From the NCBI GenBank assembly GCA_902519405.1, contig CABYJX010000012.1:1-40876 (forward strand): a DNA stretch of 40,876 bases. Reading direction: 5' to 3'. Below the pieces are notes generated by a model. That model was not told where the DNA came from, made no database searches, and worked only from the letters and a program-made list of their open reading frames with translations. Made by a program: the position numbers and the translations under genes. The DNA is from an uncultured Gammaproteobacteria bacterium (GTDB taxonomy: Bacteria > Pseudomonadota > Gammaproteobacteria > Pseudomonadales > Halieaceae). This document shows, piece by piece, positions 4,234 through 22,827 of the stretch. The stretch's first letter is position 1, and the number at the start of each line of letters is the position of its first letter.

Positions 4234-4689
4234 ATGAGGATACAAAATATGTTTTTTGCAATTTTGAATCCGATTATGCGAACCCTATTGAAGTCTCGTT
4301 TTCACAAATTGGCTAGCAAAGATATTGCTATCCTTTCTTATGCGGGGAGAAAAACAGGTCAATGGTACGAGACTCCGTTGAGCTATGTCCGACAAGGACA
4401 AAATATACTTCTTCTCTCCAGCCATAACACCAAATGGTGGCGGAATTTCACTAGCGAGCCTTACCCTGTTGAATTGCTGGTCAGGAGAAAGACTTTAACT
4501 GGTAATGCTATGCTGTACTCAGGTAGTACTGAATTTTTATCTTCGAATGTTACTTTTTTTCTCAAGCAATTACCTAGAGATGCCCCGATTTATGGAGTTA
4601 AACTAAATTCAGCGGGCGCGCCAACTGAAGCTACGATGGATAAAATTGGAGAGAGAGTTATTCTCGTAGTTGTTGAGCTAAAGGCTTAG
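4234..4689 (+). CDS. DUF385 nitroreductase / deazaflavin-dependent reductase family protein
   Basis: A 151-residue protein of the split-barrel family PF04075 (F420H2-dependent quinone reductase, Ddn-like). The signature is seen at about residues 33-70: an L-x-Y-x-GRKTGQWYETPLSY segment followed by ILLLSSHNTKWWRNF, matching the family's TxGRKSG..r.tPL and N.k.PaWyhNL pattern. AAGGA stands 6 bases before the ATG. Characterised actinobacterial members bind F420 and reduce quinones or nitro compounds; gammaproteobacterial members are uncommon and their cofactor is unsettled. A SnoaL-like gene follows 69 bp downstream on the same strand. Confidence 0.75.
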   Translation: MRIQNMFFAILNPIMRTLLKSRFHKLASKDIAILSYAGRKTGQWYETPLSYVRQGQNILLLSSHNTKWWRNFTSEPYPVELLVRRKTLTGNAMLYSGSTEFLSSNVTFFLKQLPRDAPIYGVKLNSAGAPTEATMDKIGERVILVVVELKA

Positions 4690-8096: not shown

Positions 8097-9716
8097 TTAC
8101 TCAGCTTTTGTATCTGCAGCCAAAAGTTGGCTCGCATATTCCGAAATTTGCTTGTAATTAGCTTTTCCATTTGGAGCTCTAAAGGGGGGTCCTCCCCTAA
8201 AAATTGCCCTTGGTAATTTGTATCTGGCGAGAGTTTGGGAGGCAAAGGCTTTTAAGCGTTCTTCGTCTAAGGCTGATCCATGTTCTAGCTCTACTACCGC
8301 GACTACTATTTGACCCCAGCGAGAATCTGGCACTCCCACCACCAGTGCATCTTTAATTCCCCGGTACTTTTTAATGACTTCTTCCACCTCTTCGGGGTAA
8401 ATCTTTTCTCCTCCTGAATTTATGCACGCCGAACCGCGGCCTAGCAGCGTAAGGGTGCCGTTTTTGGTAACTTTACAGTAATCTCCAGGGATAGAGTAGC
8501 GATGACCATTTATTACTTTAAAAGTCTCGGAGGTCTTTATTTCGTCACCATAATAGCCTAGAGGTATTGGCCCTCCAAATGCGATGAAACCTGGCTTATC
8601 GCTTCCTCTTGGGATTTCGTTGTCATCTTCATCAAAAACTTTGCAGTAGTCGTTAGTCAAAAATTTTGCGGTAGAGGCGGAATGTTCATTACTCGTTATA
8701 GATGTGCCAAATCCTAAGGCTTCCGATGATCCAAAGGCATCTACTAGGGTTGCTTGGGGAATATAATTTAGCAACCGTTTCTTGCTTTCTTGAGACCACA
8801 TTACACCTGAGGAAATAACGCTCGCTACGCTCGTCAGATCATATGACTTTGGATGTGCATCCAACTCAGCGAGAATGGGTTGAGCAAAGGCATCACCAAC
8901 GATTGTAATCGAATTTACACTATGCTGCTGAATGGAACGTAAGATTTCAGTTGCATCCAGTGAAGCAGCTTCTAGTGTTACAACCGTCCCACCATTACAG
9001 ATTGCGTTTATTGCGGTTAGAAGGCCGGTGCCATGCATCAATGGACAGGCGGGTATCATGACTTCTCCTGGCCCGTCATGAAAGACTTTCTCCTTTAATT
9101 CTTCGATATTTTCAGGTACCGGACCAATGGCACGTGCGGCAAGCAAGAGTGCTTCGCGGAGATTGTGATGATCCCACATTACCGCCTTTGGTGGTCCTGT
9201 GGTGCCTCCCGTATAGATGAAGAGTTGATCACTGGGTGAGCGCTTAGTTGGCTTCCACCTGCCGTGAGAATTCTCCGCGAGAACTTCATATCCCGTTCTC
9301 ATTGTAGTAGAAGATTGATCTGCAATCTCGATCCATTGTTTTACATTAGGAAGTTGGTGTTGGATAGCGGTTATGGTTTTTCGAAATTCTTCGGCATAAA
9401 CGACCACATTGGCATCGGAGTTTTCGAAAATATATTTAATTTCTTCTGCTACGTATCGATAGTTAACGTTGACGTGAGTTAGGCGCCCTCGAAAACAAGC
9501 GATTAGCATTTCCATATATTCAGATCTGTTCCTCATATAAAAGCAGACGCGATCGCCTGCCTGCGCACCGTTTTCATACATGGATTGCACTAGATTATTT
9601 GATCTTCTGTCGAGATCACCCCAACTGATAGATCGATCTCCATGAATTAGGGCAGGGTGCTCTTTAGGTAACACCTCCACCAGCGCGTCGAAAATGTCGC
9701 CAAAGTTCCATATCAC
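8097..9716 (-). CDS. Acyl-CoA synthetase (AMP-forming), FadD-like
   Basis: A 539-residue adenylate-forming ligase that activates a carboxylic acid to its CoA thioester with ATP. The P-loop motif YTGGTTGPPKAVMW begins near residue 168, the A5 motif is DAFGSSEALGFG, the hinge region GRGSACINSGGEKIYPEEVEEV precedes the C-terminal domain, and the catalytic Lys is Lys518 (PNGKANY). The GTG start has AAGGA 7 bases upstream. It is clearly related to the ligase at 17228-18856 (shared N-terminal EY.EML.ACF and NVNYRYV..E..YIF motifs), so this locus carries two related ligases for probably different acids. It converges with the amidohydrolase gene, 27 bp away. Confidence 0.92.
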   Translation of the reverse strand: MIWNFGDIFDALVEVLPKEHPALIHGDRSISWGDLDRRSNNLVQSMYENGAQAGDRVCFYMRNRSEYMEMLIACFRGRLTHVNVNYRYVAEEIKYIFENSDANVVVYAEEFRKTITAIQHQLPNVKQWIEIADQSSTTMRTGYEVLAENSHGRWKPTKRSPSDQLFIYTGGTTGPPKAVMWDHHNLREALLLAARAIGPVPENIEELKEKVFHDGPGEVMIPACPLMHGTGLLTAINAICNGGTVVTLEAASLDATEILRSIQQHSVNSITIVGDAFAQPILAELDAHPKSYDLTSVASVISSGVMWSQESKKRLLNYIPQATLVDAFGSSEALGFGTSITSNEHSASTAKFLTNDYCKVFDEDDNEIPRGSDKPGFIAFGGPIPLGYYGDEIKTSETFKVINGHRYSIPGDYCKVTKNGTLTLLGRGSACINSGGEKIYPEEVEEVIKKYRGIKDALVVGVPDSRWGQIVVAVVELEHGSALDEERLKAFASQTLARYKLPRAIFRGGPPFRAPNGKANYKQISEYASQLLAADTKAE

Positions 9717-10243: not shown

Positions 10244-11146
10244 TTATGAGGGCACATTGTACTCATGTCCCCATAAATCTCCGATTGTGCTGACAGTTGG
10301 TGTATAGTTATCCCAATCTACCAATAATCCATCGAATCCATATTCGATGGCAATCCCACCGGGAGCTACAACGTAGAAGCTGCACATGTTGTCATTAACG
10401 TGTCGGCCCAAAGTCGCCATGAGTGGCAAACCCGCGTTTTTTACGCGATCTAATGCGGATCCAACTTCGTCCAAAGAACTAACTTCAACCATTAGATGGA
10501 TTACGCCAGCGGGGTTTGGATGATTAAAGAGAGCAAGTGAATGTTGTCTAGGATTTTCTGCGTGCATAAAAATGACTCGCGCCGGAGGCGCACCCTCAGG
10601 CATCGGTGGTGTTAAATCATCACAAACCGGCATATGTAACAGATCTCTAAAAAAGCTCAATGTTTTTTCAGTTTCGGTGGTAGGTAGCACGGCGTGACCA
10701 AACCCTAGATCGGTCGATGAAGCATCTCGAGTGATGAATTGACTATTTGTAGCGGAGATCATTGGTTCTTTAGTTAGTTTTCTTCCATAATATAGCTCGA
10801 TAGTGTTTCCTGATGGATCCTGTCCCACAGCCAGTTCCGTTACCGCGCGATTAATTGTCTCCTCAGCAGAAGATTTTTTAAATGAATATCCGGCATCCGC
10901 AAGAACATCGATATTTGCTTGCCACTGGATCTGTGACCCGCAATCAAGGCCGCAGGCCAAAAGTCGATCATTTTCTCCTGCTTGAACCAAAAAACGAAAC
11001 GGGTGATCGTCCATACGTATCCTTAATAGATCCTGAGAATGGTTATTTCGTATTACCATCAAACCTAGGATTTCACTCGCGAAGTTTTGCCATGCATCCA
11101 AATCGGTGCTTTCAATCCTAGCGTAGCCAATACTTGATACGCTCAT
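10244..11146 (-). CDS. Type I extradiol dioxygenase (BphC/HsaC-like, two-domain VOC)
   Basis: A 300-residue, two-domain extradiol ring-cleaving dioxygenase, the usual length. The iron ligands are His151 (GFGHAVL), His217 (GVIHLMVEV) and Glu268 (GIAIEYG), all in the C-terminal catalytic domain. Second-sphere catalytic positions are also kept: His202 (QHSLALF), His249 with Asn251/Asp252 in GRHVNDNMCSFYV, and Tyr258. The C-terminal WGHEY tail is typical. It should open a catechol-type ring with O2. AGGAG lies 8 bases before the ATG. The ring hydroxylase, hydrolase and other ring-degradation genes expected beside it are absent from this window, so its pathway is unproved; steroid or aromatic catabolism is an inference. 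Confidence 0.88.
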   Translation of the reverse strand: MSVSSIGYARIESTDLDAWQNFASEILGLMVIRNNHSQDLLRIRMDDHPFRFLVQAGENDRLLACGLDCGSQIQWQANIDVLADAGYSFKKSSAEETINRAVTELAVGQDPSGNTIELYYGRKLTKEPMISATNSQFITRDASSTDLGFGHAVLPTTETEKTLSFFRDLLHMPVCDDLTPPMPEGAPPARVIFMHAENPRQHSLALFNHPNPAGVIHLMVEVSSLDEVGSALDRVKNAGLPLMATLGRHVNDNMCSFYVVAPGGIAIEYGFDGLLVDWDNYTPTVSTIGDLWGHEYNVPS

Positions 11147-12939: not shown

Positions 12940-13067
12940 CCCAAAACTTTAACTTAAAGGTCAAGTATAAGCCTCGATCTTTTTCTCTGCAAAATCTTAC
13001 ATAAGCTAACTATCCAAATACATAAGCCAGCATGTATCATGACGAAGGATATATAGAGAAGCTTAAA

Positions 13068-13865
13068 ATGAGTGATTGGAAATATCTGACCTTAGAGCGA
13101 GAAAATCGAATTCTGGTGGTTTCTTTTGACTCCTTGAATCAGGTTAACAGCCTAAATATCCAGCTTATGAGGGAATTAACTGCTCTGGCAGTCGAGCTAC
13201 AGCAAGACAACGATTTGAGTGCCATTATTCTGCGTGGAAGGGACACCATGTTTACTGGGGGGATGGATCTTAAAGATGCTGAAATAGTAAGTACGCGTCA
13301 TGGTACGGTCGCAGAAGAACGTATCCTAGCGAAAGTTGGTCCTTCAATGTGTGCGGCTTGGGAAGCCCTTGAACCGGTCACTATAGTGGCAATTGAGGGC
13401 TGGTGTATCGGTGGAGGTGTCGCTCTTGCTGTGGCATGTGACTGGCGTGTCGCTGGTTCAGACTCAAAAATATATGTGCCCGAATTAAAGTTAGGGATGA
13501 ATATGAGTTGGCAGACCATTCCCCGCCTTATTAATTTAATAGGGCCTGCGAAAACCAAAGAATTACTGATCCTTGGAGAGCCTCAAGATGCCGGCTTGGC
13601 TAAGGAATGGGGGTTGGTTGATCACATTGCAGAGTCTGGTGAGGCCTTAAGTAAATCAAAAACTATAGCAAATCAGGTAGCGACGATGCCTCCTATCCCC
13701 GTGCGTATGACCAAGCGGGCTGCAACCGTGAGCGCAACTGCCCTAAATAATGCGACTAGTTTTATGGATATAGACCAGTTTATGCTGACTCAGCATACTT
13801 TGGACGCGAAGGAAGGTATTGCCGCATTTTTTGAAAAACGAAAGCCAAAGTTCGAAGGAAAGTAA
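13068..13865 (+). CDS. Enoyl-CoA hydratase/isomerase family protein (crotonase), one catalytic Glu replaced
   Basis: A 265-residue crotonase. Oxyanion-hole segments are MFTGGMDLKD (about 61-70) and WCIGGGVAL (about 112-120). Of the two catalytic acids of classical hydratases, Glu139 (YVPELKLG) is present but the first is Ala119 (GGGVALAVACDW), so a plain syn-hydration of a double bond is less likely than isomerase-type or other chemistry. The start at 13068 has a GAGAAG ribosome site; an upstream ATG at 13032 would add 12 residues. It is the first gene of an eight-gene plus-strand run reaching 20506 and is divergent from ggt. Confidence 0.85.
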   Translation: MSDWKYLTLERENRILVVSFDSLNQVNSLNIQLMRELTALAVELQQDNDLSAIILRGRDTMFTGGMDLKDAEIVSTRHGTVAEERILAKVGPSMCAAWEALEPVTIVAIEGWCIGGGVALAVACDWRVAGSDSKIYVPELKLGMNMSWQTIPRLINLIGPAKTKELLILGEPQDAGLAKEWGLVDHIAESGEALSKSKTIANQVATMPPIPVRMTKRAATVSATALNNATSFMDIDQFMLTQHTLDAKEGIAAFFEKRKPKFEGK

Positions 13866-13975: not shown

Positions 13976-14458
13976 TTGTCAATCCTTTTAGTTCAGTTTT
14001 TACGGGTTGAAGGTTTAGTGGAAGATTTATTTCTCCAAAAAGAATATGAACTCGGATTTACCTATACTCGGTCCACCGGTCCCGTCGTAGGTAAATTTCT
14101 CACTGGTTTAAAAAATAAGAAAATTTTTGGTAATCGGGGAAGCGATGGAAGGGTCATTGTCCCGCCCATGGAATATGATCCAGAGACTTTTCAACCTCTA
14201 AATGATTTTGTACAGGTTTCAGATGCTGGAATGATAGAGAGTTGGTGCTGGGTAGCTGAACCCCGTCCGGCTCATCCTAGCGCTGTTCCTTTTGCTTGGG
14301 TCATGATCAAGCTTGATGGCGCTGACATCTCTATGATTCATCATGTTGTTACAGACGAACCAAGCAGAGTTGTAACTGGTGCCCGCGTTAAGGCATCGTG
14401 GATAGATCAGCCAGTTGGATTGATTTCAGATATTCGATATTTTGTTTTGGAAAAATAA
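13976..14458 (+). CDS. DUF35 / OB-fold protein lacking the zinc-ribbon cysteines
   Basis: A 160-residue protein matching the DUF35 family in its C-terminal OB-fold (about residues 75-158: VQVSDAGMIESWCWV, VPFAWVMIKLDGADISMIHHVV, GARVKASWID, ISDIRYFVLE). In the normal zinc-ribbon region (about residues 48-67) the sequence reads GNRGSDGRVIVPPMEYDPET, so all four ribbon Cys are replaced. The start is a TTG with an AGGGG just upstream; a GTG 42 bases later is possible. The stop is 2 bp before the next DUF35 gene. In the known thiolase-DUF35 complexes a DUF35 subunit binds CoA or couples the active sites; a metal-free partner is plausible for this heteromer. Confidence 0.82.
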   Translation: MSILLVQFLRVEGLVEDLFLQKEYELGFTYTRSTGPVVGKFLTGLKNKKIFGNRGSDGRVIVPPMEYDPETFQPLNDFVQVSDAGMIESWCWVAEPRPAHPSAVPFAWVMIKLDGADISMIHHVVTDEPSRVVTGARVKASWIDQPVGLISDIRYFVLEK

Positions 14459-14460
14459 CA

Positions 14461-14979
14461 ATGGGTGACACAAATAAGGAAACTATTGACTCGATAGAGG
14501 CGCCTATCTATTTGAAATATAACTTCACGGCAGGACTTGCGCCGGCTCGATTTTTGTCTCATTTAAAGAAAGGGATATTGACGGGCCAACGCTGTCCAAA
14601 GTGTGATAATGTTTACGTTCCACCCAGAGGATCTTGTCCAGCTTGTGGCGTCGCCACCGAAACAGAAGTCGTGCTAGGCAACAAAGCGACAGTGCAGTCA
14701 TTTACTATTGTCTCGATACCAATTCCAGGTAATCCCATTGAACCCCCTTTCATAGTGGCAAATTTGGTGCCCGATGGAGCAAATACCTCTTTCATCCATT
14801 TAATGAGTGAGTGCGTGAACGAAGAAGTCAGAATTGGACAGCGAGTTACGGCTGTTTGGAAACCTGAAGAAGAATGGGGTTTTGCAATGGATAACATTCG
14901 ATATTTTAAGCCGCTTGATGAACCTGATATTCCAGTAGAGTTGATTGGACATTTGTCTGTTAACGGCGAAGAAGGATAA
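14461..14979 (+). CDS. DUF35 / OB-fold protein with intact zinc ribbon
   Basis: A 172-residue protein with the full DUF35 layout: an N-terminal helical region around FTAGLAPARFLSHLKKG, a four-cysteine zinc ribbon CPKC..VYVPPRGSCPAC near residues 45-65, then the OB-fold (TVQSFTIVSIPIPG, PPFIVANLVPDG, GQRVTAVWKP, IRYFKPLDE). The start at 14461 lies 2 bp after the previous stop; an upstream frame extension was rejected. It is known that such proteins bind acyl-CoA and partner thiolase-fold enzymes in steroid aldolases and in archaeal HMG-CoA synthase/thiolase complexes. Its thiolase-like partners are the next two genes. Confidence 0.9.
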   Translation: MGDTNKETIDSIEAPIYLKYNFTAGLAPARFLSHLKKGILTGQRCPKCDNVYVPPRGSCPACGVATETEVVLGNKATVQSFTIVSIPIPGNPIEPPFIVANLVPDGANTSFIHLMSECVNEEVRIGQRVTAVWKPEEEWGFAMDNIRYFKPLDEPDIPVELIGHLSVNGEEG

Positions 14980-14980
14980 C

Positions 14981-16042
14981 TTGGATATAGATATTTGTAT
15001 TGTTGCCTTTAGTCAATCTGCTTGCTTAGCTCAGGCGGGTGCAGCTAATGAGGTTGAACTGATCATGCCTGAGCTAGAGGCGGTATACCGCCAGGTTGGT
15101 ATTAGTAATGCGCAGGATGTTGATTTTGTTTGCTCTGGAAGTTGCGATTATTTACAAGGCGCTGCGTTTGCTTTTGTATCTGGTGTGGATGCCTTAGGCG
15201 CTGTGCCTCCAATTCAAGAATCTCATGTGGAGATGGATGCGGCGTGGGCCTTGTATGAGGCGGTTTTAAAAATCAGGATGGGTCATGCGGAATCAGCTCT
15301 GGTGTATGGCTTTAGCAAATCCTCACCCGGAGAGCTTCCAATCGTCTTATCGCAGCAGTTAGATCCCTATTATCTTGCACCTCAATGGATTGATTCGATC
15401 TCTTTGGCAGCATTGCAGGCAAGACTTATGCTGGACAGAGGGATAATAGAACTCAGCGATATGGCTGCGGTTGTAGCGTCCTCAAGACGGTGCGCGATCG
15501 AGAATAAAAAGGCGCAACTTTCAGGCCAGTTTTCTGTTAGTGACTTATTAAAAGAGCCTGAGTACGTATCTCCTCTTCGAAGGGCTGACTGCAGCCCCAT
15601 TAGTGATGGTGCATCTGCTATGATTATTTGTACGAAATCAAAGGCCGAAGAGTGGAACGTACCCTTCGCTCGACTAGTCGGAATTGATCACCGTATTGAA
15701 ACTCATAACTTGGGCATGCGTGATCTAACGACCTCACATTCTACTCGATTGGTAGCAGAGGCTCTGTCAATTCATAGTGATAGTCTTGATATTGCCGAAT
15801 TGTACGCGCCATTTAGTCACCAGCAGCTCATACTGGAAAAGTCACTTGAACTGCGTCCAGAGACAGATATAAATCCTAGCGGTGGTGTTTTAGCTGGTAA
15901 TTTGATGATGGCATCAGGTTTATCCCGCGTTGGCGAAGTCTTTGATCGGATAGTTGATGGTAAAGCGAGCCGGGGTTTAGCGCATGCTACATCTGGGCCT
16001 TGTTTACAACATAATCTTTTGGCGATACTGGAGAGAGGGTAA
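14981..16042 (+). CDS. Thiolase-fold protein with non-canonical active site (Ltp2-type)
   Basis: A 353-residue thiolase-superfamily protein of the SCP2/lipid-transfer branch, shorter than a regular thiolase. The expected nucleophile Cys position lies in the HVEMDAAWALYEA stretch (about residues 82-94), where there is no Cys. The HPxGASG motif is replaced by LAGNLMMASG (Asn307 for His), and the C-terminal CxGGG by HATSGPCLQ, where a Cys341 remains. Normal thiolysis looks impossible. Tyr275 in AELYAPFSH is a candidate acid/base by analogy with Ltp2-type aldolases, not proven. The start is a TTG at 14981 with AAGGA 4-5 bases upstream. It overlaps the next gene by 1 bp (TAATG), so the two are translationally linked. 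Confidence 0.85.
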   Translation: MDIDICIVAFSQSACLAQAGAANEVELIMPELEAVYRQVGISNAQDVDFVCSGSCDYLQGAAFAFVSGVDALGAVPPIQESHVEMDAAWALYEAVLKIRMGHAESALVYGFSKSSPGELPIVLSQQLDPYYLAPQWIDSISLAALQARLMLDRGIIELSDMAAVVASSRRCAIENKKAQLSGQFSVSDLLKEPEYVSPLRRADCSPISDGASAMIICTKSKAEEWNVPFARLVGIDHRIETHNLGMRDLTTSHSTRLVAEALSIHSDSLDIAELYAPFSHQQLILEKSLELRPETDINPSGGVLAGNLMMASGLSRVGEVFDRIVDGKASRGLAHATSGPCLQHNLLAILERG

Positions 16043-17205
16043 TGGGAGAGCTCGCTGCAGTCGTTGGAATAGGCCAAACAAAATATGCTAGTAGACGCGG
16101 GGATGTCTCTATTGCAGGTTTAGTTAGAGAAGCAGCAGGAAATGCCCTTGAAGATGCAGACCTTGGTTTTAAAGACATTGATGCAGTGGTAATAGGTAAG
16201 GCGCCTGATATGTTCGAGGGTGTTGTAATGCCGGAAATTTATCTGACCGATGCCCTTGGAGCTAATGGAAAACCCATGCTTCGAGTTCACACTGCTGGAT
16301 CGGTAGGGGGATCAACGGCACTAGTGGCGGCCTCGCATGTGCAAAGCGGTACCTTCAGGCGCGTCTTAACCGTCACCTTTGAAAAACAGTCAGAATCAAA
16401 TGCCATGTGGGCACTTTCTAGCCCACAACCGTTTTCAGTGCATTTGAATGCAGGTGCTGGCGGCTACTTCGCACCTATCATTAGAGAGTATATTCGGCGC
16501 TCCAATGCACCTTCCGACATTGGAATAATGGTTGCCGTAAAAGATCGCCTGCATGGCGCCCGTAACCCTTTATCACACTTAAATTTGCCAAATATTTCGC
16601 ATCAGGAAGTTGAAGATTCCATGATGTTATGGGACCCGATCAGATTTCTAGAAGCATGTCCTTCGTCAGATGGGGCGTGTGCGATGATCATCGCTAATGA
16701 GGAACTAGTGTCTGAAAGCCCCAAGCCGCCAGCATGGATTCTTGGGGGTGCGATGAGATCGGAGCCGACGATTTATGCGGGAAGAGATGAGGTTAATCCA
16801 AGGGCAGGTAGGGACTGTGCCAAGGAAGTGTACGCTCAGGCTGGAATTTCAAACCCGAGACGACAATTTGACTGCGCTGAGGTATATGTCCCCTTTAGCT
16901 GGTATGAACCCATGTGGTTGGAAAATCTAGGCTTTGCCGATCAAGGAGAGGGCTGGCGCCTAACTCTTGACGGAGCCACGTCGCTTGATGAAGGAGGGGA
17001 TATTCCTTGGAACTGTTCCGGTGGTGTTTTAAGTTCCAATCCAATTGGTGCTTCCGGTATGATTCGTTTTGCAGAGGCTGCGCGACAGGTCCGAGGAGAC
17101 GCAGATCAACATCAGGTGGAAAATGCGCAGCTCGCATTGGGACATGCATATGGTGGCGGAGCACAATTTTTTTCTATGTGGGTGGTGGGTGCGAGGAAGC
17201 CCTAA
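16042..17205 (+). CDS. Thiolase-fold protein, putative steroid-type side-chain aldolase (Ltp2-like)
   Basis: A 387-residue lipid-transfer/thiolase homologue. The nucleophile region reads LRVHTAGSVGGSTALVAA (residues 80-97) with no Cys, HP..GASG is SSNPIGASG (Asn333 for His), and the C-terminal loop is GHAYGGGAQFF (Tyr370 instead of Cys). Loss of all three thiolase residues with Tyr370 and Tyr282 (EVYVPFSWY) present fits the tyrosine-based retro-aldol mechanism proposed for Ltp2-DUF35, though residue equivalence needs an alignment. It would cut a beta-hydroxyacyl-CoA side chain into acyl-CoA plus ketone or aldehyde. It sits next to two DUF35 genes and another thiolase-like gene, which argues for a heteromeric complex. 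The CoA-ligase gene follows after 22 bp. Confidence 0.85.
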   Translation: MGELAAVVGIGQTKYASRRGDVSIAGLVREAAGNALEDADLGFKDIDAVVIGKAPDMFEGVVMPEIYLTDALGANGKPMLRVHTAGSVGGSTALVAASHVQSGTFRRVLTVTFEKQSESNAMWALSSPQPFSVHLNAGAGGYFAPIIREYIRRSNAPSDIGIMVAVKDRLHGARNPLSHLNLPNISHQEVEDSMMLWDPIRFLEACPSSDGACAMIIANEELVSESPKPPAWILGGAMRSEPTIYAGRDEVNPRAGRDCAKEVYAQAGISNPRRQFDCAEVYVPFSWYEPMWLENLGFADQGEGWRLTLDGATSLDEGGDIPWNCSGGVLSSNPIGASGMIRFAEAARQVRGDADQHQVENAQLALGHAYGGGAQFFSMWVVGARKP

Positions 17206-17227: not shown

Positions 17228-18856
17228 ATGACAAAACATTTTAATCTTGCCGACCTCTTTGAAATGGTATCTGACGTAGTCCCACGAAGAGAGGCACTCG
17301 TTTGTGGTGAGCATAGAGCTACTTATGCACAACTAGAATCCAGAGCAAATCGGTTAGCAAATTATTTAATCAGCAGAGGGATAAAAAAGGGTCAGCATGT
17401 TGGTCTATATTTATATAACTGTAATGAATATATCGAGGCGATGCTGGCTTGCTTCAAGATTAGAGCGGTGCCCATTAATATCAATTATCGCTACGTTGAT
17501 TCTGAACTTGCATATATCTTTGATAACGCCGACCTAGTCGCTTGTGTCGCTCATCGCGAATTTCTTCCGCATATCAAGGCGATCCAAGCCGATTTTCCTG
17601 CGCTGAGAACATTGATTCACGTCGAAGATGAATCCTTGGCTGATACAGCGGATATAGAGTCCTCCGCCTATGAAAAAGCTCTAAGCGAATGCTCTGATAT
17701 TCGTAGTTTCCCTGAGCGAGCTGATGACGATCTCTTTATTTTGTATACGGGAGGTACAACCGGAATGCCAAAAGGAGTAATGTGGCCACAGAAAGCATTA
17801 TTCTTTGCGGCTATGGGCGGAGGAGGTTGGTTCCATCCAGATGGTGCGATAGATTTACCCGAGGAAATTTCTAGCCGCGTAACGGAGGCCGCTATCGTGG
17901 GTATGGCGTTAGCGCCGCTCATGCACGGTGCGTGTTGGTGGTATGCCTGTATACAATTGCTAGCAGGTAACACCCTAATATTAAACCCTTCACACTCTCT
18001 GTTAGGTGAGCAGGTATGGAGTATTGTTGAGAAAGAGAAAGTTAATGCTTTGACTATTGTCGGCGATGCAATGGCGTCTCCGCTTTTAGAAGCACTAATA
18101 AATAGCACCAATAGGTGGGACCTGAGTTCAATTTTTTCGATAGGGTCAGGTGGGGCGGTTTTTTCAGAAAGTAAGCAGGAGATGTTTAGAGAGTATTTCC
18201 CAAATGTTTTTATTACCAACTCCTTTGGTTCATCAGAAAGTGGGAATATGGGTTTTGACGGAGGTGGACGCAAAGGGAGTGGATTAGGGAACGTAGCTCA
18301 GAGTGAATTTATGTCAGTGATTAACTACGATGATTCTGGATTGGCGAAGCATGCCAGTCCAGGCGAAGAAGGCATATTTTCTCGAAGCGGCCATATTCCG
18401 ATAGGTTATTACAATGATAAAGAGAAGACTGCTAAAACAATCCTTGATATAGAGGGAAAAAACTGGCTACTGCTTGGTGATGAAGCTCGGCTAGAGGACG
18501 ATGGAACTATAACGGTTTTTGGTCGTGGCTCCAATTGCATTAATAGTGGAGGCGAGAAGATTTTTCCTGAAGAGGTGGAACAAGCACTCAAAATCAATCC
18601 AGATATCTATGATTGTCTTGTTGTTGGAATTCCTGATGATCGCTATGGGAATTTGGTGACGGCCGTAGTAGCGCCGAAGCCCGGGAGATCGCTGGACCTT
18701 AACTCATTACAACTGCATGTGAGAGCGCATATTGCGGGCTATAAGGTGCCACGTCAATTGCACTTAGTCGAAGATGTTCCCAGAACGCCTAGTGGAAAGC
18801 CGGACTACCCTAAGGCACTGCAGCTAGCGTTATCGAACGAGTTTGTAATCTCTTAA
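17228..18856 (+). CDS. Acyl-CoA synthetase (AMP-forming), FadD-like
   Basis: A 542-residue adenylate-forming CoA ligase. Motifs: YTGGTTGMPKGVMW starting near residue 173, NSFGSSESGNMG, GRGSNCINSGGEKIFPEEVEQA and PSGKPDY with catalytic Lys524. Its N-terminal part (FNLADLFEMVSDVVP, ALVCGEHRATYAQLE) resembles ligases of the actinobacterial FadD19/sterol side-chain type, from memory rather than a search. It should activate the pathway's carboxylic acid for the crotonases and thiolase-fold pair around it. GGAAG lies about 8 bases before the ATG. The crotonase gene follows after 14 bp. It is related to the 8097-9716 ligase but clearly diverged. Confidence 0.93.
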   Translation: MTKHFNLADLFEMVSDVVPRREALVCGEHRATYAQLESRANRLANYLISRGIKKGQHVGLYLYNCNEYIEAMLACFKIRAVPININYRYVDSELAYIFDNADLVACVAHREFLPHIKAIQADFPALRTLIHVEDESLADTADIESSAYEKALSECSDIRSFPERADDDLFILYTGGTTGMPKGVMWPQKALFFAAMGGGGWFHPDGAIDLPEEISSRVTEAAIVGMALAPLMHGACWWYACIQLLAGNTLILNPSHSLLGEQVWSIVEKEKVNALTIVGDAMASPLLEALINSTNRWDLSSIFSIGSGGAVFSESKQEMFREYFPNVFITNSFGSSESGNMGFDGGGRKGSGLGNVAQSEFMSVINYDDSGLAKHASPGEEGIFSRSGHIPIGYYNDKEKTAKTILDIEGKNWLLLGDEARLEDDGTITVFGRGSNCINSGGEKIFPEEVEQALKINPDIYDCLVVGIPDDRYGNLVTAVVAPKPGRSLDLNSLQLHVRAHIAGYKVPRQLHLVEDVPRTPSGKPDYPKALQLALSNEFVIS

Positions 18857-18870
18857 CGAGGTTTAGAATC

Positions 18871-19689
18871 TTGAAAGAACTATCAATAAGCACCAAAAAT
18901 TGTATTGTACAAAAAGATGATGCACTCCTCATAATTACCTTGAATCGACCCGAAGCAAAAAATGCATTCACGCCGGAGATGTTGCTTGGAATGTATAAGG
19001 CTTGGAGAATGTTAGATCAGGATGAAGAATTGCTCTGCGCAATTCTTACTGCTAACGGAGATACCTTTTGTGCGGGTATGGATTTGAAAGCAGGCGCCGA
19101 TGGTGATCAAAGATCCTCAGATGAGTTTCTATCTATAATGAAAGAGGTTCCAAATATTCACTGGCAAGCCCTGCTGAGGGATAATCGTCCTAATAAACCC
19201 TTGATATTGGCAGCGGAAGGATATGCTTTAGCAGGAGGCACCGAAATTCTGCAAGGCACAGATATTCGTATTGCTGCAGAGAATGCTGTTTTTGGTGTTA
19301 CAGAGGTGGCACGAGGACTTTATCCAATGTCTGGTTCAACGGTAAGATTACGTAGACAGATTCCATACTGTCTTGCTGCAGAAATGTTACTCTGCGGTGA
19401 TCACATATCTGCTCATCAAGCGCTACAATTCGGTCTAATTAATCGTGTGGTGCCCGATGGAACAACCCTAGTTGCAGCTAGAGAGTTTGCAGAAAAGATT
19501 TGTAGCTGTGGTCCGATGGCGGTTAACGCTGTGGTTCGGGCACTTCGAAGCCTGCAAGAAGACTTGAACGAGGAGGAGGCTATGGAGGTTTCAGATAAAC
19601 TCGCTGGACCAGTGTTCGCATCAGAAGATGCTAAAGAAGGTATGCGAGCTTTCAAGGAAAAACGGAATCCCATCTTTCGAGGGAAATAA
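18871..19689 (+). CDS. Enoyl-CoA hydratase
   Basis: A 272-residue crotonase with both catalytic acids of classical hydratases: Glu125 (GGTEILQGTDIR) and Glu145 (FGVTEVARGLYP). Oxyanion-hole segments are TFCAGMDLKAG and ALAGGTE. It should add water across a trans-2-enoyl-CoA to give a 3-hydroxyacyl-CoA, the substrate type a retro-aldolase or dehydrogenase would take. The start is a TTG with GAGG about 10 bases upstream. It lies 14 bp behind the CoA ligase gene and before another crotonase, so it is part of the same run. Confidence 0.88.
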   Translation: MKELSISTKNCIVQKDDALLIITLNRPEAKNAFTPEMLLGMYKAWRMLDQDEELLCAILTANGDTFCAGMDLKAGADGDQRSSDEFLSIMKEVPNIHWQALLRDNRPNKPLILAAEGYALAGGTEILQGTDIRIAAENAVFGVTEVARGLYPMSGSTVRLRRQIPYCLAAEMLLCGDHISAHQALQFGLINRVVPDGTTLVAAREFAEKICSCGPMAVNAVVRALRSLQEDLNEEEAMEVSDKLAGPVFASEDAKEGMRAFKEKRNPIFRGK

Positions 19690-19741
19690 ACTCCACGGGA
19701 ATGCATTAAAACTATTCAGATCAAATCAGTGTGTCTTACTT

Positions 19742-20506
19742 ATGACTAATTCATTAAAAATTGAGCGAGATGGTGCAATTTTACGTGTGGCCTTTAATCG
19801 ACCAGAGAAGAAGAATGCGATTGATAATGCGATGTGGATTGCTCTAAAGGAAATATTTTTAGAGTCTCGCGAGGATGACAAAGTTAGATGCGTGCTTCTA
19901 ACTGGAGTGGGTGAAAACTTTTCTGCAGGAGTAGATCTTGCTTCATTCGACCGGGCTTCTTCTGACGCTCAACACCCTTTTGAGTCTGCTGCTCGCGCGG
20001 TAGCTGACTTTAATAAACCACTAATTGCAGCTGTGAAGGGAGTGGCAGTTGGAGGTGGAGCAACGATTCTTTTTCATGCGGATATTGTGTACGTGAGTAA
20101 AAGTCTCAGAATGAGATTACCCTTTGCAAGTCTTGCACTCGCTCCAGAATGGGGCAGCAGCTATATGCTGCAAGCCAACATAGGCGCCCAGCGAGCGGCC
20201 GAATTGTTTTTTACAGCGCAGTGGATCGATTCAGACTTGGCAGTAAGTTATGGCTTAGCAGCAGGTGCCTTTGCTGATGATGAGTTGCTAGCAAAAGCTG
20301 ACGCTAAGGCATTAGAGATTTGTAGGTGGCCCGCTTCGGTACTTTGCGAGATAAAAGAGTGTCTAAGGGCACATCATAAACCGCATCTAGATCTAGCCTT
20401 TCAACTAGAGCGGGATGCTATGGCACGATTGGCCGGCTCTCCTGACAATATAGAAGCCATTTCGGCACTATTTGAAAAACGTGATCCAGATTTCAACAGA
20501 GGTTAA
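19742..20506 (+). CDS. Enoyl-CoA isomerase-like crotonase
   Basis: A 255-residue crotonase whose active site resembles delta3-delta2-enoyl-CoA isomerases: the first hydratase Glu is missing (GGGATILFHAD) while a Glu sits in the ALAPEWGSSYML segment (Glu136), like the PEaGSS motif of PECI/ECI-type isomerases. Oxyanion loops are NFSAGVDLASF and VAVGGGA. It should shift a double bond of an enoyl-CoA. The start at 19742 was chosen because the upstream frame overlaps the preceding gene and shows no family similarity. It is the last gene of the run and converges on the ribB-like gene only 4 bp away. Confidence 0.85.
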   Translation: MTNSLKIERDGAILRVAFNRPEKKNAIDNAMWIALKEIFLESREDDKVRCVLLTGVGENFSAGVDLASFDRASSDAQHPFESAARAVADFNKPLIAAVKGVAVGGGATILFHADIVYVSKSLRMRLPFASLALAPEWGSSYMLQANIGAQRAAELFFTAQWIDSDLAVSYGLAAGAFADDELLAKADAKALEICRWPASVLCEIKECLRAHHKPHLDLAFQLERDAMARLAGSPDNIEAISALFEKRDPDFNRG

Positions 20507-21636: not shown

Positions 21637-22827
21637 TTAAACAGAGCAAGATATTTCAACGGCGACGGCTGTAGCCTCACCCCCGCCAATACATAAGGCG
21701 GCTATGCCTCTGCTCTTGCCGAGTCGATGCAGAGCATTTACCAGCGTAACAATGATTCTGGATCCAGTTGAGCCGATTGGATGACCTTGCGCGCAGGCGC
21801 CCCCATATACATTCACTTTTGAATGATCAATATTTAATTCTTTCATCGCGAGAATCGTTACCATGGCAAAAGCTTCATTAATTTCAAAGAGATCTACGTC
21901 CTTAATATCCCATCCCACTTTCCTGCAAAGTTTTTTAACAGCACCTATGGGTGCCAGCGTAAAGTCGTTGGGTTTTAGGCTATGTCTAGCATGTCCGATC
22001 AAATAAGCGCCTGGGTTGATATTATTCTCCTCAGCATACTTTAGATCAGCTAGCACCATAGCACTGGCACCATCTGATATTGAGCTCGTATTAGCAGCGG
22101 TAACAGTCCCATCCTTAGCAAAGGCTGGCATTAAATTAGGAATTTTTTCCTTTACAGCTCGATGAGGCTGCTCGTCCCTCACAACTTCATGATTACCTTT
22201 TCGACCTTCAATCTTTACCGGAACAATCTCGTCTTTTTGTGCGCCACTCCTCTCAGCAGACAAGGCTCGCTCAAGTGAACTAATAGCAAAATCATCCATT
22301 TCATCTCGCGTCACTTCATATTTATCTGCTGTTTCCTGCGCAAAACTTCCCATCGCTCTTCCCGTATATGCATCCTCAAGACCATCTAAAAACATATGGT
22401 CCTTTAATACTTTATGTCCTGTTCGGAGGCCACCACGAGCACCGGCTACTAAGTGAGGAGCATTAGTCATACTCTCCATTCCTCCGGCAACCACTAATTT
22501 ATTAGTTCCGGAGATTATACTGTCATTCGCAAATATTGCAGATTGCATTCCACTACCACAAACTTTATTGATTGTAGCTGCGCCAGCTGCAACAGGGATT
22601 CCACTTCCTATGGCTGCTTGTCTGGCTGGACTTTGCTTTAATCCTGCTGACAGCACGCAACCCATGAAGACTTCATCAATATCTTCCGCTTTGATGGTGC
22701 TTTTTGATAACGCGCCTTTTATTGCAAAAGCGCCCAATTCAGTAGCACTCACTTCAGCGAGATCGCCTTGCAAACAGCCTGTAGGAGTTCGGGCACATCC
22801 TAATATAGCCACCTTTGGTTTTTGCAT
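21637..22827 (-). CDS. Acetyl-CoA acetyltransferase (thiolase)
   Basis: A 396-residue canonical degradative/biosynthetic thiolase. All catalytic motifs are intact: Cys90 in VCGSGMQSA, the His of ACAQGHPIGSTGSR, and the Cys of ALCIGGGEATA near the end. It reversibly converts two acetyl-CoA to acetoacetyl-CoA or cleaves 3-ketoacyl-CoA. AAGGA lies 9 bases before the ATG. This is a normal thiolase, in contrast to the two inactive-looking homologues at 14981-17205. It starts a two-gene minus-strand unit with ribB and is divergent from the fabY-like gene, with about 400 bp between. Confidence 0.93.
   Translation of the reverse strand: MQKPKVAILGCARTPTGCLQGDLAEVSATELGAFAIKGALSKSTIKAEDIDEVFMGCVLSAGLKQSPARQAAIGSGIPVAAGAATINKVCGSGMQSAIFANDSIISGTNKLVVAGGMESMTNAPHLVAGARGGLRTGHKVLKDHMFLDGLEDAYTGRAMGSFAQETADKYEVTRDEMDDFAISSLERALSAERSGAQKDEIVPVKIEGRKGNHEVVRDEQPHRAVKEKIPNLMPAFAKDGTVTAANTSSISDGASAMVLADLKYAEENNINPGAYLIGHARHSLKPNDFTLAPIGAVKKLCRKVGWDIKDVDLFEINEAFAMVTILAMKELNIDHSKVNVYGGACAQGHPIGSTGSRIIVTLVNALHRLGKSRGIAALCIGGGEATAVAVEISCSV

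Follow-up and report, generated by a model that had tools for sequence, protein, structure and literature searches.

In mycobacteria, Rv3521 (a conserved hypothetical), ltp4 (Rv3522) and ltp3 (Rv3523) are arrayed in this order, and fadD19 and echA19 are Rv3515c and Rv3516 (PMC6429209). The ltp3/ltp4 genes occur with echA19/fadD19 in a Mycobacterium, where ltp3 and ltp4 are up-regulated ~97-fold on phytosterol (PMC6593523), and also in Saccharopolyspora hirsuta, where ltp4 and ltp3 are adjacent (PMC8708139). The passage citing Wilbrink 2012 in PMC6273163 states, from Rhodococcus rhodochrous mutants, that Ltp3 and Ltp4 are required for sterol side chains that are branched, but not for straight ones, and a review presents Ltp3-Ltp4 as a heteromeric aldol-lyase whose cleavage of C24-C25 follows carboxylation at C28 and hydration (PMC6678751). 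In this study, we analyzed a stretch of 40,876 nucleotides (the window) from an uncultured bacterium of the gammaproteobacterial family Halieaceae (contig CABYJX010000012.1), which carries a four-gene unit encoding two DUF35 proteins, DUF35a and DUF35b, and homologues of Ltp4 and Ltp3. The unit is probably the orthologue of the actinobacterial Rv3521-ltp4-ltp3 genes, and would encode a heteromeric non-thiolytic aldol-lyase for coenzyme A (CoA)-activated side chains of C24-alkylated (plant, algal) sterols. Its kind is already known, a genetically defined sterol aldolase, found here in a marine clade; its points of interest are the putative four-part make-up and the altered active site.

Family models and gene order underlie the orthology. 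The Ltp4 homologue matches the NCBIfam lipid-transfer protein model PRK07937 over its full length with 450.4 bits (cut-off 419; residues 16-363 of the long frame), and the Ltp3 homologue matches PRK08313, also over its full length, with 657.3 bits (cut-off 514). We presumed PRK07937, PRK08313, PRK07798 and PRK07799 to be the Ltp4, Ltp3, FadD19 and EchA19 group, and this grouping was tested afterwards. Pfam gives no match for Ltp4 and Thiolase_C_1 for Ltp3. The order DUF35-ltp4-ltp3 beside fadD19- and echA19-like genes is present in the window, and Tsukamurella, Nocardia and Streptomyces plasmid loci display the order oligonucleotide/oligosaccharide-binding (OB) protein, Ltp4, Ltp3 beside AMP-binding and crotonase genes.

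A total of 80 loci from named genomes were kept from more than 585 relatives, scanned with one genome per species. Their hosts include Halieaceae, Spongiibacter, Zhongshania, Sterolibacterium, SAR86, Deltaproteobacteria, Myxococcota, Acidimicrobiia, Amycolatopsis and Streptomyces, and two Saccharopolyspora loci (L107, L125) also carry the same four-gene unit. The closest named relative, at 91%, belongs to an uncultured marine Halieaceae (L075). The order DUF35a, DUF35b, Ltp4, Ltp3 is kept throughout wherever the contig is complete. Among 58 related genomes, Ltp4 exceeds the cut-off in 26 and is found in two pieces in a 27th. The arrangement is not due to chance, because it recurs in 26 of the 58 related genomes and in all fetched loci with a complete contig. 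The genes are densely packed, as the sequence-only reading had described, with 2 base pairs (bp) between DUF35a and DUF35b, 1 bp between DUF35b and Ltp4, and an overlap of 1 bp between Ltp4 and Ltp3. That reading had placed the DUF35a start at TTG 13976; GTG 14018 is likelier, since the orthologues in sister genomes begin at the matching residue. The Ltp4 numbering used below, with Asn307, follows from the TTG start at 14981. Scans for promoters and terminators gave no signal above chance.

The distribution of Ltp4 ties the unit to sterol degradation. KshA_C is encoded in 26 of the 27 Ltp4-positive genomes and in 8 of the 31 negative ones (Fisher p = 2e-8), the HsaC-like protein shows the same counts (26/27 and 8/31, p = 2e-8), and CYP125-like proteins are distributed 26/27 and 4/31 (p = 3e-11). 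With one genome per genus, p is still at or below ~5e-7, a value in which shared ancestry beyond the genus is uncorrected. Ltp4 is thus nested among steroid-degrading genomes, the pattern to be expected of an accessory branch. Growth of Halieaceae isolates on cholesterol (PMC5790920) also speaks for a role in sterol breakdown. The sequence-only reading had suggested a possible new C-C cleaving system of unknown substrate, for a branched or cyclic acid. The active-site residues do differ from both solved steroid aldolases, but a new lyase unrelated to steroids is highly improbable: the unit sits in steroid-degrading genomes beside HsaC-like, FadD19-like and EchA19-like genes, curated families and gene order fit Ltp3/Ltp4, and the published mutants point to sterol side chains branched at C24.

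An aldolase of the same family may instead act at another side-chain step in marine bacteria, on the C27 chain of cholesterol, the C5 chain of bile acids or the unsaturated chain of an algal sterol. Marine sterols are unlike plant sterols, sponge isolates of Halieaceae and Spongiibacteraceae grow on cholesterol (PMC5790920), and the ligase beside Ltp3/Ltp4 in SAR86 is CasG-like (548 bits, under its cut-off) rather than FadD19-like. We nevertheless regard this alternative as unlikely, given that the Rhodococcus ltp3/ltp4 requirement concerns branched and not straight chains in the passage cited above (PMC6273163, citing Wilbrink 2012), that two FadD19-family ligases lie in the window and FadD19 is likewise linked to C24-branched chains (PMC6678751, PMC6273163), and that Ltp2, the aldolase of the C3 chain, has its own gene in 20 of the 27 Ltp4-positive genomes. 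The four-gene unit is present in SAR86 genomes L100, L103, L110 and L112, and in the SAR86 loci with long enough flanks the CasG-like ligase (scored in L100) and crotonases replace the FadD19-like ligase.

Several observations weigh against the assignment to C24-branched sterol side chains. The tie to the published Ltp3/Ltp4 is made through family models and gene order, with the Tsukamurella, Nocardia and Saccharopolyspora relatives as stand-ins, and the published reaction is itself a proposal derived from mutants. No activity of purified Ltp3-Ltp4 was found in the literature searched, which mostly leaves subscription journals outside. The NCBIfam EchA19 model gives 322 bits for the crotonase at 18871..19689, below its cut-off of 400, and the HsaC model gives 259 bits for the dioxygenase at 10244..11146, below its cut-off of 450. 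KshA was not found in the window's own genome, which is 60% complete, and no gene next to the operon was recognised as a carboxylase. Biotin carboxylase is also not among the 25 commonest families flanking the distant loci, a family tally in which single occurrences may hide; those families include acyl-CoA dehydrogenases, short-chain dehydrogenases/reductases, ligases and crotonases.

Residues were counted over 47 Ltp3 and 53 Ltp4 sequences. In all 47 Ltp3 sequences, Gly86 stands at the nucleophile position (HTAGSVGGS), Asn333 replaces the His of HPxGASG, Pro284 takes the place of the HDCF Cys of SCP2 thiolases, and both Tyr282 and Tyr370 are present. The nucleophile loop of Ltp4, ESHVEMD, has no Cys either; Asn307 is found in 48 of the 53 sequences and His in the other 5, whereas His335 (53/53), Glu80, Ser81, His82 and Asp86 are invariant. 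The earlier claims that both proteins lack the nucleophile Cys, with Asn333 and Asn307 in place of His, thus stand, and the alignment revealed no intact Cys or His at shifted positions. The invariant cysteines are Ltp4 Cys51 only, outside the nucleophile loop, and Ltp3 Cys206 (CPSSDGA), a Cys in Ltp2 too. Neither protein has the N-terminal nucleophile Cys and second Cys/His of SCP2 or biosynthetic thiolases, and these residues are absent from both across many phyla. The losses are specific, because an ordinary thiolase that the window also encodes retains its motifs. Ordinary thiolase activity was ruled out on residues. The statement that Tyr370 replaces the C-terminal Cys held in part: Tyr370 is invariant, but is one off in a strict alignment, where Ala369 is closer.

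The Ltp4 AlphaFold2 model shows a full thiolase fold (predicted local distance difference test, pLDDT, 89; predicted template modelling score, pTM, 0.90), with fold matches of Z 36-46 (6esq 45.9, 9myr 37.8, 6ok1 36.6). As the best matches include 6esq, PhlABC and MucABC, a multi-component acyltransferase or synthase was also considered, of the PhlABC type or like the archaeal thiolase/3-hydroxy-3-methylglutaryl-CoA (HMG-CoA) synthase complex, in which DUF35 joins two thiolase-fold proteins. Such enzymes are generally known to require a nucleophilic Cys, which the loops of Ltp3 and Ltp4 lack in all sequences counted, and this alternative has the least probability of those considered. In the window's genome, a separate pair of DUF35 and thiolase-fold genes was found on contig C36 (L037 6063-7707), whose thiolase-fold protein has the nucleophile Cys (SYAACASGS) and YDLS in place of the YDHF/YDCY of aldolases.

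The non-thiolytic aldol-lyase assignment was compared with the known aldolases at residue level. In TcLtp2, Tyr294 is the base and Tyr344 the acid; CtSal uses Tyr302 and an essential Cys304 in the motif YDCY (PMC12329534). Profile alignment of Ltp3 with Ltp2 (hhalign 99.8%), with both Ltp2 tyrosines located in the 6ok1 sequence, places Tyr282 on TcLtp2 Tyr294. Asn333 corresponds to TcLtp2 Tyr344 if the GASG/GMNG ends are matched; the hhalign gap lies one step away and the pairing is our reading. Ltp3 therefore has Tyr282 but Asn333 for Tyr344 of the Ltp2 pair, and PRK07855 gives it 122 bits against a cut-off of 469. The Sal motif with Cys304 is not found either, with YVPF in Ltp3 and mostly [HY]APF in Ltp4. 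The earlier view of an Ltp2-like retro-aldolase with a conserved Tyr, rather than a thiolase, is favoured by the invariant match of Tyr282 to Tyr294. At the Tyr282 position, Ltp4 has His in 36, Tyr in 12, Cys in 3 and Ser in 2 of 53 sequences, and Ltp3 is the likelier catalytic subunit because the Tyr is invariant in Ltp3 and the position varies in Ltp4. Judged from these residues, the unit likely represents a third active-site version besides those of Ltp2 and Sal.

Both DUF35 proteins have the OB fold of ChsH2 type (Pfam OB_ChsH2_C), and zf-ChsH2 is found in DUF35b only. DUF35b comprises a zinc ribbon (CxxC...CxxC) and the OB fold, with sequence matches to 3irb, 6esq_E and 6ok1_B. DUF35a has an N-terminal part shaped as a zinc ribbon but without the zinc cysteines, and CxxC is missing from it in 79 of the 80 loci. 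The top matches of its AlphaFold2 model (pLDDT 92.8) are all DUF35 (Z 9.4-12): 6htj and 3irb lead, followed by the DUF35 portions of Ltp2-ChsH2, Sal-Shy, 6esq, BbsAB, PhlABC and MucABC, and the values then fall to 5.9. The zinc-cysteine pattern of DUF35b is present in the window and replaced in 45 of the 80 loci, including L062-L064, L076-L078 and L081-L088, while the VPPRG core is mostly kept.

In Actinobacteria, including the Tsukamurella, Nocardia and Streptomyces loci above, DUF35a and DUF35b form a single protein of ~310-340 residues. Fusion is found in ~25 of the 80 loci, including Spongiibacter and Zhongshania (Spongiibacteraceae), with ~5 changes on the tree. The fusions support a single complex. 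Over 63 loci, the distance matrices of every protein pair are correlated (0.71-0.91), values which no permutation reached. Partial correlations link DUF35a to Ltp4 (0.56) against Ltp3 (-0.07), and DUF35b to Ltp3 (0.61) against Ltp4 (-0.09), the same in every half-sample, though the DUF35b pairing is ambiguous in the gammaproteobacterial loci alone. This hints at DUF35a-Ltp4 and DUF35b-Ltp3 pairs, a lead rather than proof of contact. The 2+2 heteromeric make-up suggested by the sequence-only reading gains support from the fusions and the correlated evolution, and no description of the paired DUF35 make-up was found in the literature searched.

From these data we infer the subunit contacts, catalytic residues and substrate in the Halieaceae host. 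The FadD19-like ligases would form the C26-oyl-CoA, followed by desaturation, plus C28 carboxylation according to the published scheme, and a hydratase would add the hydroxyl at C24. An Ltp3-Ltp4 heterodimer with two flanking DUF35 subunits would then cut C24-C25 to a short acyl-CoA and a ketone. Tyr282 of Ltp3 may deprotonate this hydroxyl. The enolate would be protonated neither by Tyr344, as in Ltp2 (Asn333 here), nor by Cys, as in Sal (Pro284 here), and Tyr370 is the best candidate for this acid. The most likely role of Ltp4, a thiolase fold without the Tyr282 equivalent, is to complete the active site and the substrate pocket. More tentatively, the unit might form an obligate four-part complex whose halves are DUF35a-Ltp4 and DUF35b-Ltp3, in which a third version of the thiolase-derived aldolase active site, with Tyr282 and Tyr370, is completed by Ltp4 His82, Asp86 and His335, and serve as the main route for C24-alkyl algal sterols in marine Gammaproteobacteria including SAR86; we consider this full scheme possible but doubtful.

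C24-branched sterols of plants and algae are plentiful; what is known of the enzyme removing the branch comes from mutants, with no purified protein in the literature searched. The unit spans marine Gammaproteobacteria, Sterolibacterium, Myxococcota, Deltaproteobacteria and Actinobacteria, and this wide spread, the split and fused DUF35 forms and the invariant residues offer constructs to settle stoichiometry and mechanism. Its genes may also serve as a marker of C24-alkyl sterol degradation at sea.

Genes of the four-gene unit and its neighbours in the window.
Feature	Coordinates	Strand	Basis
Second FadD19-family acyl-CoA ligase	8097..9716	-	PRK07798 631.6 bits, cut-off 543
HsaC/TesB-like extradiol dioxygenase (steroid ring A)	10244..11146	-	Divergently placed; BphC model 240 bits
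Upstream crotonase	13032..13865	+	Pfam ECH_1
DUF35a	14018..14458	+	Pfam OB_ChsH2_C; GTG start most likely
DUF35b	14461..14979	+	Pfam zf-ChsH2 and OB_ChsH2_C; ATG start
Ltp4 homologue (first thiolase-like protein)	14981..16042	+	NCBIfam PRK07937; TTG start; 353 residues
Ltp3 homologue (second thiolase-like protein)	16042..17205	+	NCBIfam PRK08313; ATG start
FadD19-like acyl-CoA ligase	17228..18856	+	PRK07798 643.5 bits, cut-off 543; 22 bp downstream of Ltp3 gene
EchA19-like crotonase	18871..19689	+	PRK07799 332 bits, cut-off 316
Second crotonase of the unit	19739..20506	+	Pfam ECH_1
Ordinary thiolase	21637-22827	-	Keeps CGSG, NEAFA, GHPIGSTG, CIGGG

The FadD19-like ligase adjoins the unit in Halieaceae loci and is near by in actinobacterial loci, and the second crotonase is retained in Halieaceae loci. 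The HsaC-like gene is a direct and conserved neighbour of the Ltp4 unit in many Halieaceae, the window included. By synteny, the upstream crotonase adjoins the unit in no genus other than the window's own; it could be a candidate hydratase for the unit. A nitroreductase-family gene lies between the crotonases of the unit in two other loci (L044 13777-14457, L071 11977-13807), and in Zhongshania there is also a family III CoA-transferase. Elsewhere in the window, 195-1070 and 4234-4689 hold a luciferase-like monooxygenase and a relative of F420H2-dependent quinone reductases.

Compared with Ltp3-Ltp4 and Rv3521 of Rhodococcus and Mycobacterium, the unit agrees in family models, in the order DUF35-ltp4-ltp3 and in its FadD19/EchA19 neighbours, but has two separate DUF35 genes, a gammaproteobacterial host and an adjacent HsaC-like gene. 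Ltp2-ChsH2 (PDB 6ok1) shares the thiolase fold with a DUF35 partner, the absence of the thiolase Cys pair and the Tyr of YDHF, equivalent to Tyr282; it has one kind of thiolase-fold protein, and its Tyr344 and YDHF His are Asn333 and Pro284 in Ltp3. The bile-acid aldolase Sal-Shy (PDB 9myr) is alike in retro-aldol chemistry, DUF35 partner and the Tyr of YDCY, whereas its essential Cys304 is Pro284 here and its DUF35 forms one protein with a MaoC hydratase. Thiolase fold and DUF35 are also common to the benzoylsuccinyl-CoA thiolase BbsAB (7pxp), which is thiolytic with one kind of thiolase subunit. In PhlABC (5m3k), two different thiolase-superfamily proteins are held by DUF35 as here, but this enzyme uses a Cys nucleophile and is an acyltransferase, not a lyase.

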